The notes under the pieces were generated by a model. It ran no database searches and was not told where the DNA came from. It was given only the letters and a program-made list of their open reading frames with translations. 64,000 nt of DNA from Sphingomonas panacisoli (GTDB taxonomy: Bacteria; Pseudomonadota; Alphaproteobacteria; Sphingomonadales; Sphingomonadaceae): the NCBI RefSeq assembly GCF_007859635.1, contig NZ_CP042306.1, positions 124,001 to 188,000 on the forward strand. Reading direction: 5' to 3'. Shown in pieces: positions 8,492-51,865 of the stretch; position 1 is the stretch's first letter, and each line of letters starts with the position of its first letter. Made by a program: the position numbers and the translations under genes.

Positions 8492-9603
8492 GCCTTCTTC
8501 GCTCGCGTTCGCCGTCGTCGCGGCGGGTTGGGGGCGGGGGCGGGTGAGGTTTCCATCGCGCGTTCCGAATTGCGCTCCATCGCGACCTTGATCATCGCGG
8601 TCAGCGGATCGGCGAGCGCCAGGCCGAGGATACCGAACAAGGTCGAAAACAGAATCTGCGTCGACAGCGTCAGCGCCGGCGGCAAATCGACGGTCTTTTT
8701 CGCGACCAGCGGAATCACCACCCAGCCGTCGAATGTCTGCACCCCGAAATAGATCAGGATCGCGAGCAGCCCCTTGTCCATTCCGGCCGAGAACCCGACC
8801 GAGATCATCAGCACGCCGCTGATGAACGCGCCGATATTGGGGATGAAGGCGAGCATGCCGGTGATGATGCCCAGCACCAGCGCCATCGGGATGCCGGCCA
8901 GCGCCAGCGCGAGCCACATGAACAGCCCTTCGAAGGCCATCCCCGCCAGACGGCCGGCGAGCAGGCGGCGCAGCTGCTTCGCCATCCGTTCGAGCGTGAT
9001 GGCGAATTCGGCGCGCTGGTCGCTCGGGACCATCCATTGCAGCCCGCGATCGTAGAGCTTGGGCTCCATCGCGACGAACAAGCCGATCACCATGATCATG
9101 AACAATGTGGTGATCGCGCCCAGTGCGGTGCCGATCCAACTCGTCAGCTTGCCGACCGAGCCCATCGCTTGCTGTGCCAGCCCCTTGAGGTCGTCGGCGC
9201 CCGGCAGGAAACCCTGCGCGGCGGCCCAGTGCGACAGCCGGTCGAACTGCACCGTCAGGGTCGCCTGGAGTTGCTGGAACTGGATGACGATCCCGGCGCC
9301 GGTCTTGTAGACGGTCAGGCCGATGAACAGCACGGTGAGCACCACCACGATCAACAGCCGCCAGCCGCGCCCGATCTTCAGGTAACGCCCGAGCAACCGA
9401 ACCCCGCCGTCGAGCATCGATGCGAATACCAGCCCCGCCAGGATGACCAGGATCGGCTGGATCAGGATCACCACAAGCGCCATCACCGCGGCGAGCCCCA
9501 GCCAGATGCCCGCGCGCCTCAACTCCAGGCGCATTTCCGGATCGCGCAGCTCATGCGGGCTCGGTTCGGTGACCAGGCCGGCGTCGGGCCGCTCGGTGCT
9601 CAC
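8488..9603 (-). CDS. AI-2E/PerM-family membrane transporter
   Basis: The GTG start at 9603 gives 371 residues, normal for the family. It overlaps the stop of the duplicated mini-ORF (GTGA). After a charged N-terminal segment come paired hydrophobic helices (AAVMALVVILIQPILVILAG), a central soluble-looking region, and the conserved C-terminal membrane block with LGIITGMLAFIPNIGAFISG and the LALADPLTAMI end. Family members include the quorum-signal exporter TqsA and putative permeases such as PerM and YdiK; the substrate here is unknown. The N-terminal 40 codons exist twice because of the tandem duplication described separately. Confidence 0.85.
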   Translation of the reverse strand: MSTERPDAGLVTEPSPHELRDPEMRLELRRAGIWLGLAAVMALVVILIQPILVILAGLVFASMLDGGVRLLGRYLKIGRGWRLLIVVVLTVLFIGLTVYKTGAGIVIQFQQLQATLTVQFDRLSHWAAAQGFLPGADDLKGLAQQAMGSVGKLTSWIGTALGAITTLFMIMVIGLFVAMEPKLYDRGLQWMVPSDQRAEFAITLERMAKQLRRLLAGRLAGMAFEGLFMWLALALAGIPMALVLGIITGMLAFIPNIGAFISGVLMISVGFSAGMDKGLLAILIYFGVQTFDGWVVIPLVAKKTVDLPPALTLSTQILFSTLFGILGLALADPLTAMIKVAMERNSERAMETSPAPAPNPPRRRRTRAKKA

Positions 9604-9846
9604 TTGTCGCGCGCCGGATGGAGTGAGGTACCGGCCCGACCGCCGCGCAGGCCGCCCCACCACGTCACCGCGGCGAGCCCCAGCCAGATGCCCGCGCGCC
9701 TCAACTCCAGGCGCATTTCCGGATCGCGCAACTCGTGCGGGCTCGGTTCGGTGACCAGGCCGGCGTCGGGCCGCTCGGTGCTCACTTGTCGCGCGCCGGA
9801 TGCAGCGAGGTACCGGCGCGGCCACCGCGCAGGCCGCCCCACCAGG
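9483..9846. repeat. 182-bp tandem direct duplication spanning the lepB/perM junction
   Basis: Two adjacent copies, about 9483-9664 and 9665-9846, line up with a constant offset of 182 bases. I count only about seven or eight mismatches, roughly 96 percent identity. Each copy contains the last ~20 codons of lepB and the first ~40 codons of perM. The differences show the copies have drifted, so the duplication is not brand new and is unlikely to be an assembly artefact. Confidence 0.9.
9600..9785 (-). pseudogene. Chimeric 61-codon mini-ORF created by tandem duplication (perM start fused to lepB end)
   Basis: A GTG at 9785 overlaps the lepB stop, and this frame closes at 9600-9602, overlapping the true perM start. 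Its first 40 codons repeat the PerM N-terminus and its last 21 repeat the LepB C-terminus (TWWGGLRGGRAGTSLHPARDK is close to identical in both). Both junctions keep the GTGA overlap, so ribosomes could run from lepB through it into perM. It is most simply a by-product of duplication, not a functional gene, although it may be translated. Confidence 0.8.
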
Positions 9847-21211: not shown

Positions 21212-21852
21212 CAATCGCTTCCCCGGCGAAGGCCGGGGACCAGTATCGGGCCGGTCGCAACTGGACCCCGGCCTTCGCCGGGGAACGGCAGGTGGATGGG
21301 CTTGGCGTCCGGCAAAGCAATCTGCGTGTGACTAGCGATGAGTACACCGCCGCCATTGGCGCGGTGACGGGCGATGGCGTCCTCCAACCGTGCCAACGCC
21401 GCGCTGTCCAGGCCATTGGCCGGCTCGTCGAGCAACCAGACCGGCGCGCCGCTGGCGACGACGCGTGCGAAGGCGGCGCGGCGGCGTTGGCCGGTCGAGA
21501 GCAAGCGCACCGGCACCTCGGCGAGGTCGCTCAGTGCCGTCTTTATCAGCGCGTCGGCTACCGCGTCAGCGCGACCATCGATCCGCGCCCAGAACCCGAG
21601 CGCCTCGGCCAGCGGCAGTTCCTCGTCGAGCGATGCCACCTCGGTCAGTAAGGCGCGTGGTGCTTCACCCTCGACCGCCCCTGCGGCAGGCCGCAACAGT
21701 CCCGCAGCCACACGGATCAGACTGGACTTGCCCGCGCCATTCGGGCCGGTGACCAGCGCCGCGCCGCCCGGTTCCAGCGCGAACGACAGTCCTTCGAACA
21801 GCACGCGTCCGCCGCGCTCGCACGTGACGTCGCGGAACACGAGCAGGCTCAA
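21211..21852 (-). CDS. ccmA: Haem exporter ATP-binding protein CcmA, with a repeat-derived C-terminal tail
   Basis: The 213-residue ATPase starts with a TTG that overlaps the upstream stop (TTGA). The Walker A is TGPNGAGKSS, the signature LLSTGQRRRAAFARV, and the Walker B APVWLLDEPANGLD, followed by the H-loop SHTQ. It drives CcmB/CcmC in cytochrome c maturation. The last ~25 residues (from LPFPGEGRGP to GLRRGSD) are encoded by a palindromic repeat at 21219-21285, not by normal ccmA sequence. The core fold appears complete before this tail. Confidence 0.92.
   Translation of the reverse strand: MSLLVFRDVTCERGGRVLFEGLSFALEPGGAALVTGPNGAGKSSLIRVAAGLLRPAAGAVEGEAPRALLTEVASLDEELPLAEALGFWARIDGRADAVADALIKTALSDLAEVPVRLLSTGQRRRAAFARVVASGAPVWLLDEPANGLDSAALARLEDAIARHRANGGGVLIASHTQIALPDAKPIHLPFPGEGRGPVATGPILVPGLRRGSD
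21219..21285. repeat. Palindromic repeat element forming the ccmA 3' end
   Basis: Two 23-base arms, about 21219-21241 and 21263-21285, are inverted repeats with one mismatch around a 21-base centre. Each arm is itself a hairpin of the form CCCCGGCGAAGGCCGGGG. The element lies inside the ccmA reading frame and ends just before the stop codon. The arms share their architecture with those at 39183-39255 and in truB. Confidence 0.88.
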
Positions 21853-24363: not shown

Positions 24364-25889
24364 GCGACTTCCTCGAAGCGCTCGGCCGCGCGCCGGACCT
24401 GCTGGCGCAGCATCTGTTGCTGGCGATGGCGGCGCTGGTGCTGGGCATCGTGTTGAGCCTGCCGCTCGCGGTGCTGTCGGCGCGCGTGCCCGTCGTCGGG
24501 CGGGTGGCGTTGGGGTTCGCCAGCCTGGTCCAGACGATTCCGAGCCTCGCGTTGCTGGCACTGTTCTACCCGCTGCTGCTGTCGCTCTCGACATTGGTGG
24601 GCGGGGGTATTCCGGCGCTCGGTTTCCTGCCGTCGCTGCTTGCGCTGACGTTGTACGCGCTGCTGCCGATCTTGCGGAACGGCGTGACCGGGCTCGCGGG
24701 GATCGATCCGGCGGTGATCGAGGCGGCCGACGGCGTCGGCATGACCGCAGGGCAGAAGCTCCGGCTGGTCGAGGCGCCGTTGGTCGCGCCGGTCCTGATG
24801 GCGGGGATCCGGACGGCGGCGGTGTGGACGATCGGCGCGGCGACGCTCTCCACCACGGTCGGCCAGCCGAGCCTGGGCGACATGATCTTCGCCGGGTTGC
24901 AGACGCAGAATTGGGCGCTGGTACTCGCGGGCTGCTTCGCCGCGGCGGCACTCGCGCTGGCGGTCGATGCGCTGCTCGGCGTGATCGAGCACGGTATCGC
25001 CCAGCGCAAACGCGGTCGCGTGTGGGTCGCGCTCGGATTGCTCGCCGCGGGCATCCTGGTCGCGCTGGCGCCGATGCTGCCGGCGTCGAAACCGACCGTC
25101 GTGATCGGCGCGAAGGGCTTTTCGGAGCAATATATCCTGTCGCGATTGGTCGGGCATCGGCTGGAAGCGGCGGGGTATCACGTCCAGTATAAGGAGGGGC
25201 TGGGGTCGGGCGTGATGTTCGCCGCGCTGACGTCGAGCGATGTCGATGTCGCGATCGACTATACCGGCACGATCTGGACCAACGAGATGAAGCGCGGCGA
25301 CAATGTGCCGCGCGATGCGATGCTGGCGGCGATCGGCGCGTGGGAAGCGAAAAAAGGCCTCAACCTGCTCGGTCGGCTGGGGTTCGAAAATGCCTATTGC
25401 TTCGCGATGCGCGGCGACCGGGCGCGAGCGTTGGGCGTCGTCAGCCTCGACGATCTCGCGGCAAAGGCCGACGATCTGTCGTTCGCGAGCGACCCCGAAT
25501 TCCTCGAACGCCCCGAGTGGAAAGCGGTGAAGGCGGCCTATCCGATCCGCTTCCGCGCGGCGAACGCGTACAGCCCGACCTTCATGTACCGTGCGCTGGC
25601 AGGCGGTCGCGCCGACGTCATTTCCGCCTATACTTCCGATGGGCGGATCGCGGCGGACAAATTGGTCGTGCTGGCCGATCCGAAGCATGCGATCCCGAAC
25701 TACGACGCGATCCTGACGATCTCGCCGCGGTTCGCGAAGAATGCGAAGTTCTTGGCCGTGCTCCGCCCGCTCATCGGCCGCATCGACGTCGCGGCGATGC
25801 GCGAGGCGAACTACATGGTCGATCGCGACACGGCGAAGGCCAGTCCCGATGCGGCCGCGCGCTGGCTGGCGGCTAAGATCGGGCTGTGA
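24360..25889 (+). CDS. Fused permease and substrate-binding protein of an OpuC/EgtU-like ABC importer
   Basis: The GTG start at 24360 overlaps the ATPase stop and gives 509 residues. Residues 1 to about 210 are an OpuCB-like permease with the EAA-type loop [21 protein letters not shown]. After a further helix near 230-250, residues about 255-509 are a QAT-family binding protein ([56 protein letters not shown]). This fusion is known for glycine-betaine and ergothioneine importers; the ligand here cannot be decided by eye. The 3' end overlaps recF by 17 bases on the other strand. Confidence 0.88.
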
Positions 25890-27039
25890 TCCGCCCGTCG
25901 GCGACGTCGTACCAGCTGGCCTGACCGATGCCGTCGAACGGCGAGCGCTCGGTGCCGGTCATCCACACCTGACCGCCGGTCGCGGCCAGCCGATCGAACA
26001 ACGCGGCGCGGCGCGACGGGTCGAGATGCGCGGCGACTTCGTCGAGTAGCAAAACGGGGGCGCGGCCGGTGCGCGCGGCGGTGAGTTCGGCGTGCGCGAG
26101 GACGAGCCCGAGCAACAACGCCTTCTGCTCGCCGGTCGAGCACAGAGCGGCGGGTTGCTGCTTTTCGAGATGCGTAACCGCGAGGTCGCTGCGATGCGGC
26201 CCGGCCAGCGTACGCCCGGCGGCGGCGTCGCGGCGGCGGCCTTGCGCCAGATCGGCGGCGAGCGTGCCGGTGTCGGTCCACCCCTCCAGTGCCAGACCGG
26301 CACGGGCGAACGGCCCGGCCGGTTGATCGGCGAGCCGCTCGCCCAGCCGCGCCACCGTCTCGCGCCGGGCGGCGTCGATCGCCGCGCCATGCTCGGCCAT
26401 CTGCGCCTCGAGCGCGCTCAGCCACGCATCGTCATGCGGTCCGTCCTCGGCAAGCAAGCGGTTGCGCGCGCGCATCGCCGCTTCGTAGCGGTTGGCGTGG
26501 CCCGCATGATCGGGGCGCAGCGCCAGTGTCAGCCGATCGAGGAACCGCCGCCGCTCGCCCGCGGGCTCGACGAACAGCCGGTCCATCGCCGGGGTCAGCC
26601 ACAGCACCGTCAGCCATTCGGCGAGCGCGGTCGCGGCGGCGGTCGCGCCGTTGATGCGGACGATCCGGCGCTCGGGCGCGGTTGCCAGGGTGCCGGTGCC
26701 GACTTGTGACTCCCCCTCCTGCTTGCGGGAGGGGTTGGGGAGGGGTTCCGCCAAGTCCTTAGACGACGGGGCAAAGGACACGCCCTCCCCTAACCCCTCC
26801 CGCAAGCGGGAGGGGAAAAGCGTCGTCGCCACGCCGAACCCGCCCGCGCCGCCCTGCCGTGCCATGTCCGACAGCGGCGCGCGTCGCAGCCCGCGGCCCG
26901 GGGCGAGCAGCGACACCGCCTCCAGCACGTTGGTCTTGCCCGCGCCGTTATCCCCGGTCAGCACGACAAAGCCGCGCCCCGGGTGGAGCACGGCTTCGGC
27001 GTGATTGCGGAAATCGGTCAGGACCAGGCGCGACAGCAT
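25873..27039 (-). CDS. recF: DNA replication and repair protein RecF, with an in-frame repeat insertion
   Basis: From ATG 27039 the protein has 388 residues. It has Walker A GDNGAGKT (29-36), the RecF-type signature [18 protein letters not shown], and Walker [15 protein letters not shown]. RecF helps load RecA at gapped DNA. Residues about 75-112 (FPSRLREG ... NPSRKQEG) are encoded by a palindromic repeat element and look foreign to the family. The insertion lies in the first ATPase lobe, between the strand GFGVATTL and RIVRINGA. The frame is intact, so the protein is probably functional. Confidence 0.93.
26712..26816. repeat. Palindromic repeat element inserted in frame in recF
   Basis: A left arm at about 26712-26745 and a right arm at about 26783-26816 are imperfect inverted repeats (each contains the self-complementary CCCTCCCGCTTGCGGGAGGG theme) around a ~37-base centre. 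The whole element is about 105 bases, a multiple of three, so the recF frame survives. Its motif differs from that of the truB and ccmA elements, so it is a separate repeat family. Confidence 0.88.
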
Positions 27040-50902: not shown

Positions 50903-51865
50903 GTGCATGGCTGGATCATCCTCGACAAACCGCTCGAGCTCGGCTCGACGCAAGGCGTGAGCGCGGTCAAGCGTGCGTTGCGTCAAGGTGGGTATAGGAA
51001 GCTAAAAGTCGGGCACGGCGGCACGCTCGATCCGCTGGCGACAGGCGTGCTGCCCATCGCGATCGGCGAGGCGACCAAGCTCGCCGGGCGGATGCTCGAC
51101 AGCGACAAGGTCTACGACTTCACAGTCGCGTTCGGGGTCGAGACGGATACGCTCGATCTGGAGGGAAAGGCGGTCGCGGAGAGCGACGTGCGGCCAAGCA
51201 TGATGGCGATCGATGCCGTCCTACCGCAATTCACCGGCGCGATCGACCAGGTGCCGCCAGCCTATTCGGCGCTGAAGGTCGATGGCGAGCGGGCGTATGA
51301 TCTGGCGAGAGCGGGGGAAGATGTTGAACTGAAGTGCCGCTCAGTAACAGTCTATTCTTTAGTCCGTCACCCCCGCGAAAGCGGGGGCCTATCTCCCGTC
51401 CTGTCCAATGCGCGGCACGGCGACGAGATGGGTCCCCGCTTTCGCGGGGATGACGAGGTTATGGATAGTGTCACCCTCACCGCCCACGTCTCCAAGGGCA
51501 CCTACATCCGCTCCCTCGCCCGCGACATCGCCCGCGCGCTTGGCACCGTCGGCCACGTCACCTATCTCAGGCGCATCAAGGCCGGCCCGTTCGACCTGTC
51601 CCACGCGATATCGCTGGACAAACTGGACGAAGCCGCTAAGGGCCGCACCCTTGAACAACATCTCCTGCCGCTGAGGGCGGGGCTGGACGACATCCCGGCT
51701 CTCGCGCTCGATCCCGACCAGGCAGGGGCGCTCCGTCAGGGGCGCGTTCTGGCCGGGATTGCCGAAGACGATGGCCTGCACTTCGCGACCCTGGGCGACA
51801 CGCCCGTCGCATTGGTGGTGGTCACCAGCGGGGAAGCCCGTGTCGTCCGCGGCTTCAACCTATAG
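50903..51865 (+). CDS. truB: tRNA pseudouridine(55) synthase TruB, with an in-frame repeat insertion
   Basis: The GTG start at 50903 gives 320 residues. The catalytic aspartate D43 is in [16 protein letters not shown], with [29 protein letters not shown] and [14 protein letters not shown] (197-210) following. It makes pseudouridine 55 in tRNA. Residues about 154-187 ([14 protein letters not shown] ... [10 protein letters not shown]) come from a palindromic repeat, inserted in the loop before KGTYIR. The frame is intact. Confidence 0.94.
51366..51454. repeat. Palindromic repeat element inserted in frame in truB
   Basis: The left arm (about 51366-51388, GTCACCCCCGCGAAAGCGGG...) and the right arm (about 51432-51454, ...CCCCGCTTTCGCGGGGATGAC) are inverted repeats around a ~43-base centre. 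Each arm is itself a GAAA- or TTTC-centred hairpin. It matches the design of the copy at 39183-39255. The inserted DNA leaves the truB frame open. Confidence 0.9.

Follow-up and report, generated by a model that had tools for sequence, protein, structure and literature searches.

The recF gene of Sphingomonas panacisoli carries, in frame, a palindromic doublet that is very probably a gene-less mini copy of a palindromic element, the complete form of which bears a DUF559 gene. Overall, we consider it probable that this is a REPIN-like doublet family having as its partner a homing-type nuclease instead of a RAYT.

An in-frame palindromic doublet in recF

Within the window, that is the whole stretch of 64,000 nt that was analysed (contig NZ_CP042306.1, positions 124,001 to 188,000), the coding region of recF is interrupted by an inverted repeat of 103 nt that has a 22-nt palindrome at either end and arms of 33 nt each that are 88% complementary and spaced by 37 nt (Table 1). 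The first-pass annotation had reported an inverted repeat inside recF at 26712-26816, which proved to be real, its coordinates being 26713-26815 in our analysis. A chance repeat was rejected both by pattern count and by folding against shuffled sequences: the 20-nt palindrome pattern, allowing up to three mismatches, has two matches in the window versus 0.23 expected, a number found in one of 100 shuffles, and the single-stranded doublet folds into a near-perfect hairpin of -45.9 kcal/mol versus a shuffle mean of -21.7 (z-score -9.2, 0 of 200 shuffles).

Table 1. Position of the recF doublet and its parts in the window, and of the five doublets of the genome on the contig.
Feature	Position	Strand	Length	Evidence or remark
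Palindromic doublet (mini-element), in frame in recF	window 26713..26815	.	103 nt	homologous site empty in the close relatives L051 and L053
Left end palindrome CCCCTCCTGCTTGCGGGAGGGG	window 26713..26734	+		pattern match, one mismatch to family
Subterminal arm TTGGGGAGGGG, pairs with 26783-26793	window 26735..26745	+		repeat search, mini comparison, fold
Doublet centre, not common to family copies	window 26746..26782	+		comparison of 18 minis
Subterminal arm CCCTCCCCTAA, pairs with 26735-26745	window 26783..26793	+		repeat search, mini comparison, fold
Right end palindrome CCCCTCCCGCAAGCGGGAGGGG	window 26794..26815	+		pattern match, 0 mismatches
recF; doublet = residues 75-109, between predicted strands 68-74 and 111-118	window 25873..27039	-		TIGR00611 1.5e-70; weak structure model
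recF doublet, mini, no gene	contig 150713-150815		103 bp
Doublet, mini, no gene	contig 559654-559749		96 bp
Doublet with one ORF, DUF559	contig 1371829-1372228		400 bp
Doublet, mini, no gene	contig 2200258-2200387		130 bp
Doublet with one ORF, DUF559	contig 3386078-3386493		416 bp

The recF ORF, read from 27039 to 25873, stays open across the doublet, and in comparison with the nearest empty RecF among the genus loci compared (L051, 95% and 90% identical in its two halves) the net gain is 99 nt, or 33 residues. The earlier estimate of about 35 residues added with the frame kept thus stands, at 33-35 residues. The stretches that we take to be the Walker A, signature and Walker B motifs are intact in the insert-bearing protein. 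In the structure model the insert is a coil (pLDDT 25-41) between the two predicted strands; the N-terminal half of RecF is poorly modelled (mean pLDDT 64.8), so that the placement of the loop rests mainly on the alignment.

Two further candidates were set aside. The insert does not belong to a known RNA family, given that its 27 Rfam matches (26 miRNA hairpin models and one sX5) were all below the gathering scores, and an intein or intron was rejected, the insert having 35 residues only, no intein family appearing in the Pfam matches of RecF and no Rfam family reaching its gathering score.

Inserts in the RecF loop of other genomes

Comparison of recF loci, also proposed on first inspection, revealed that most RecF proteins examined lack an insert, and conservation of the segment across RecF was not observed. 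In the genus set, which comprises the 30 best-scoring of 60 genomes and favours insert carriers, an insert is present in the RecF loop at 7 of the 29 evaluable loci and a short linker at the other 22 (L054 was not evaluable). Among public records, where the best 80 of 568 loci were taken and L426 was not evaluable, inserts of 87-198 extra nt, every length being a multiple of 3, were found at 24 of 79 recF loci, and the remaining 55 have a short linker of 12-27 nt (4-9 residues); some of these genomes also belong to the genus set. A palindrome was detected in 22 of the 24 inserts and fell below the threshold in L381 and L425, the latter of which may be something other than a palindromic element. 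Because the inserts differ in their arm types (CCCCTCCCGC, CCCCTCCCCTTC, CCCCTCCCAC and CCCCTCCTCTTC) and in their centres, the RecF loop has very likely been hit at least four separate times. RecF most likely tolerates an extra loop at this position.

Two observations on individual records are worth mentioning. In Sphingomonas pruni (L362) a further palindromic stretch is apparently nested in the recF insert and is absent from the very similar insert of L367, and a record titled Arthrobacter sp. TPD3018 (L428) contains a Sphingomonas-type recF and is probably mislabelled or mixed.

Copies of the doublet in the genome and in the genus

In the genome, a single contig of 3,403,025 bp, the palindrome pattern at 0-1 mismatch has ten matches, all of them paired, forming five inverted doublets (Table 1); the next matches are four at three mismatches, versus three for the backward-read control. 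The count of arms proposed in the first-pass annotation thus shows that the element is not confined to recF, and the recF doublet is the sole intragenic one of the five by ORF reading, as distinct from gene calling. The further claim that the recF arm differs from that of a repeat in truB also holds, since the two are distinct sequences. Our data thus support the recF repeat being an insertion, in frame, from a dispersed family distinct from that of truB.

The arm pattern (at most one mismatch) occurs in 41 of 61 genus genomes, in 0-162 copies per genome, and its backward-read control has no match in any of the 61. From the arm listing of two genomes (G047 and G033), 20 of 23 grouped arm stretches were examined. 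They contained 15 minis, between 96 and 111 bp long, along with two complete elements bearing DUF559 and four palindromes that stood singly. Across 18 minis, including the three of our genome, the outer 33 nt have a mean identity of 0.88, and the centres one of 0.53 versus 0.49 in shuffled sequences. By eye, the complete elements L234 and L245 agree with the two mini types in their subterminal sequences. Since minis and complete copies share their ends and subterminal sequence, the DUF559 gene is placed centrally in an inverted repeat common to both, and it is well supported that mini and DUF559-bearing copies are one palindrome-ended unit.

Homologous places without the element were found for the 559-kb doublet in three relatives (86-91% identity), for the dnaG-yqeY element in L157 (79% identity) and for the nadB-side element in eight relatives (79-83% identity). 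At these junctions, which cover all doublets outside recF except the 2200-kb one (3 of 4), comparison with the empty sites revealed by eye no target-site duplication, within the view that 9-21% divergence allows.

Palindromes on both sides of DUF559 genes

The ORFs inside the 400- and 416-bp doublets are DUF559 genes (Pfam PF04480 at 1e-37 and 2e-34). The genome has eight DUF559 matches in all, and the eight genes have palindromes of several sequence types on both sides. We extended the analysis to 133 loci drawn phylum-wide from the best-scoring listed hits, counting palindromes with a stem of at least 8 and a loop no larger than 6 that lie up to 300 nt from the DUF559 gene, and using stretches 400-700 nt out as control. 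Palindromes are present on both sides at 89 of 133 loci versus 0 of 132 control stretches: 54 of 65 in Sphingomonadaceae (our eight included), 14 of 32 in other families of the class and 21 of 36 in other classes, against 0 of 64, 0 of 32 and 0 of 36, respectively. At least one side has a palindrome at 128 loci (65/65, 29/32 and 34/36 by group), and 44 of the 133 lack one on one or both sides under this rule. Inverted repeats of at least 12 nt between the left and right flanks were found at 92 of 133 loci (56, 19 and 17 by group) versus 4 of 132 controls (1, 0 and 3). The flanks of recF loci, taken as a further control, have palindromes on both sides at 0 of 29 and inverted repeats at 2 of 29.

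When the left flank of one DUF559 locus was paired with the right flank of another, an inverted repeat was still found in 30 of 102 cases, because arm types are common to several loci, as compared with 30 of 34 true pairs (this control covered 34 of 37 DUF559 loci and 29 of 30 recF loci, the three DUF559 loci set aside being irregular and the one recF locus short). A later set of 27 loci, 20 of them new, has palindromes on both sides at 23.

The analysis of arm classes took in 89 of the 133 loci, namely those flanked by palindromes left and right and having a domain longer than 80 aa. Left and right arms are of the same class and in inverted orientation at 45 of 54 DUF559 loci, and the nearest DUF559 protein neighbour has the same arm class in 37 of 54 cases versus 17.9 expected; arm and protein distances are correlated with a Mantel r of 0.32, the permutation maximum being 0.31 (n=54). 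Arm type tracks DUF559 relatedness, as is expected if gene and arms travel as a unit.

Five homologous sites account for most DUF559 loci (48 of 65, generally the single best hit of each genome). One of these sites, the gap between dnaG and yqeY (site S2, neighbours identified by Pfam), is a repeated DUF559 home, with 17-18 loci including L038, L118 and L308, and its DUF559 proteins belong to several clades in a tree of few columns and weak resolution; the shared sites are compatible with vertical descent. Where two DUF559 proteins share 65% identity or more, their flanks are homologous on both sides in 45 of 48 pairs, which indicates that the complete form rarely hops, and we dropped the idea of complete elements hopping freely on these grounds. 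The complete form looks long-lived in place and the minis look scattered. RAYTs are likewise mostly vertically inherited.

Predicted nuclease fold of the DUF559 proteins

Foldseek comparison of a DUF559 structure model (26 sequences, pLDDT 87.6) retrieved 3hrl (8.8e-08), the homing endonuclease I-Bth0305I (1.3e-05) and Vsr (1.2e-03). Residues E17, D46, D59, H63 and D70 are invariant in all 26 sequences and lie at positions regarded as catalytic, an assignment taken from the available sections of PMC12907096 and from general knowledge. By this model the DUF559 partner has a Vsr/EDxHD nuclease fold and is a predicted nuclease. In Caulobacter, the DUF559 protein VsrA is required for the SOS response seen in the absence of the methylase ScmA, and its authors proposed a mismatch-repair nuclease, according to the same sections of PMC12907096. 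The VsrA result fits a nicking enzyme and says nothing on palindromes. Should the mechanism that we favor be correct, DUF559 genes, one of which has already been proposed as a repair nuclease there, would have a second possible role. As to defence functions, two DUF559 proteins gave no match in PADLOC, and a known defence protein was rejected for these two.

Arm abundance and cognate DUF559 genes

Twenty or more arms are present in 19 genus genomes. Among these, an examined DUF559 gene has matching arms on both sides in 10 at up to one mismatch, in 9 at no mismatch and in 12 at up to two, the last count including a neighbouring arm type (G004). For the seven without a matching DUF559 at two mismatches, the DUF559 genes were partly examined in six, and in G015 both of two were examined. 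Genome G006 has 12 arms, yet no DUF559 at E<=1e-5. A RecF insert with CCCCTCCCCTTC arms would be expected to go with a DUF559 gene having such arms. Genome G051 fits this expectation in 2 of 7 DUF559 genes examined (L443 and L446, the second being of the same type), the 22-nt arm of its recF insert being found exactly at the L443 gene; G053 has none with arms of this type among four examined, and in eight other genomes they occur at 1 of 16 DUF559 genes.

Origin and spread of the doublets

The best available mechanism, which we favor to a modest degree, is that the DUF559 nuclease moves the doublets. Its targets would be the palindromes, which single-stranded or supercoiled DNA probably extrudes as hairpins; the enzyme would nick or cut there, and host repair would then copy or join the doublet elsewhere, with no target-site duplication arising. 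Since related DUF559 genes are mostly at a common chromosomal site, the nuclease would act in trans on the dispersed minis, as RAYTs supposedly do on REPINs. In recF, the doublet would have landed between two predicted strands, in a loop that would let only in-frame and stop-free insertions survive, such an insertion being possible because the doublet arms are stop-poor.

Alternatively, the DUF559 gene could be the sole mobile part, homing into palindromic doublets or fixed intergenic sites, so that the minis are empty sites or deletion scars that spread otherwise. The predicted fold is indeed that of a homing endonuclease, I-Bth0305I, the inverted repeat of complete copies has the gene at its centre, and the dnaG-yqeY site holds several clades in the tree of few columns; however, occupancy of the same site also fits vertical descent, and allelic homing does not explain gene-less doublets at many sites, with up to 162 arms per genome, and we regard this explanation as unlikely.

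Less likely still, the doublets could be moved by a RAYT or another transposase, with the DUF559 genes as passengers. The doublets are built much like REP dimers, and RAYTs have been proposed for the latter (PMC3733652, available sections), but a search with the Y1_Tnp profile (PF01797) gave no RAYT match at E<=1 in the genome, the sole gene between the arms of its five doublets is DUF559, the association of DUF559 with palindromes extends to several classes, and the junctions compared have no target-site duplication.

It is very improbable that the doublet is instead an adaptive protein segment or a regulatory RNA hairpin selected in recF: the same RecF loop is filled in several lineages, but the arms occur elsewhere genome-wide, most examined RecF proteins have no insert, the inserts vary in arm type, length and centre, and no Rfam family reaches its gathering score. 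That the palindromes are terminators or operators of DUF559 itself, unrelated to the recF copy, is hardly credible: they do lie close to the gene ends, but they are of the same type and inverted on the two sides, recur with the same ends in gene-less copies elsewhere, and are absent as pairs from both distal and recF-flank controls.

The truB repeat and GIY-YIG genes

At 51363-51461 of the window, a palindrome doublet of a different family lies in frame inside truB (ORF 50903-51865). It has CGTC at both outer ends (CGTCACCCCC), which is the tag of the REPs described in the available sections of PMC3733652. In the genome, small GIY-YIG genes have palindromes of broadly this kind on their flanks. 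Four of its five small GIY-YIG genes (L281-L285) have left/right inverted repeats of 21-30 nt and the fifth has palindromes on both sides; at L286, which its length suggests to be UvrC, no inverted repeat reaches 12 nt. At 19 other GIY-YIG loci, inverted repeats of at least 12 nt were found at 11 and palindromes on both sides at 9 (distal control 0 of 20), and in a further set at 18 and 5 of 28, respectively (distal control 0 of 28). These loci (L251-L280, L287-L300 and L281-L285) came from the best-scoring listed hits; two of 30 were left out of the 28-locus set, and L279 is the same gene as L281. The GIY-YIG loci have at least three repeat types, and the exact truB arm is at none of the GIY-YIG genes examined.

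Two other repeats were observed in the window. An inverted pair of TTCCCCGGCGAAGGCCGGGGACCAGT and its reverse complement lies at 21219-21285, and its 20-nt core is the same as that of the arm at the GIY-YIG locus L281; at 9483-9846 there are two tandem 182-nt copies that are 96% identical.

In a joint reading of both repeat classes, which we put forward tentatively, a large fraction of the palindromic repeats of bacteria would be driven, in place of RAYTs, by small single-domain nucleases with homing-endonuclease folds: DUF559 proteins would serve CCCTCCC/CCCTCTCCC palindromes, and GIY-YIG proteins those of the CGTC-tagged, ATGCTGAAC and CTTCGACAAGCTCAG types. The inserts in recF and truB would then be gene-less passengers of two such systems, and the hypervariable apex of the doublet a scar of repeated cutting and rejoining. 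For palindromic repeats without a RAYT, no engine is described in the available sections of the papers covered, and this reading, if true, would account for the extra in-frame loops acquired by core genes, recF and truB among them. As each of the two repeat classes surrounds a one-domain protein of nuclease fold amenable to expression and assay, the question of the engine is directly testable.

Comparison with known systems

Within the open-access papers searched, none links DUF559 or GIY-YIG genes to palindromic repeats, and the nuclease partner looks to be the new part; intragenic REP dimers, including some in repair genes, were already known (PMC3733652, available sections). Like the REPINs or REP dimers that go with a RAYT, the recF doublet consists of two inverted palindromes able to form one hairpin, and like the GTAG-tagged REPs and REPINs it belongs to a family that is short, dispersed, mostly intergenic and sometimes inside genes, repair genes among them (PMC3733652, same sections). 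It differs from REPINs in having no GTAG tag at either end, in a genome without a PF01797 match, and in that the gene between cognate arms encodes a predicted Vsr-fold protein.

In the same sections of PMC3733652, the CGTC-tagged REPs are mostly alphaproteobacterial, form head-to-head palindrome dimers that are likewise also intragenic, and apparently have no dedicated transposase. Their stem of 8-9 bp and loop of 4-5 nt contrast with the 10-bp stem and 2-nt loop of the recF family arm, and the ends of the recF doublet have no CGTC. Rickettsia palindromic elements (RPE), compared here by their in-frame habit, are likewise palindromic DNA inside core protein genes (PMC3733652, available sections, and general knowledge).

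MITEs are also short inverted-repeat elements with a longer gene-bearing relative, whereas in the present family no target-site duplication was seen, the long copies have no transposase gene and the ends are themselves palindromes. Finally, the DUF559 partner resembles EDxHD homing endonucleases such as I-Bth0305I, and E. coli Vsr, in its predicted fold and in the residues at catalytic positions, and is distinguished from them by the position of its gene between palindromes.
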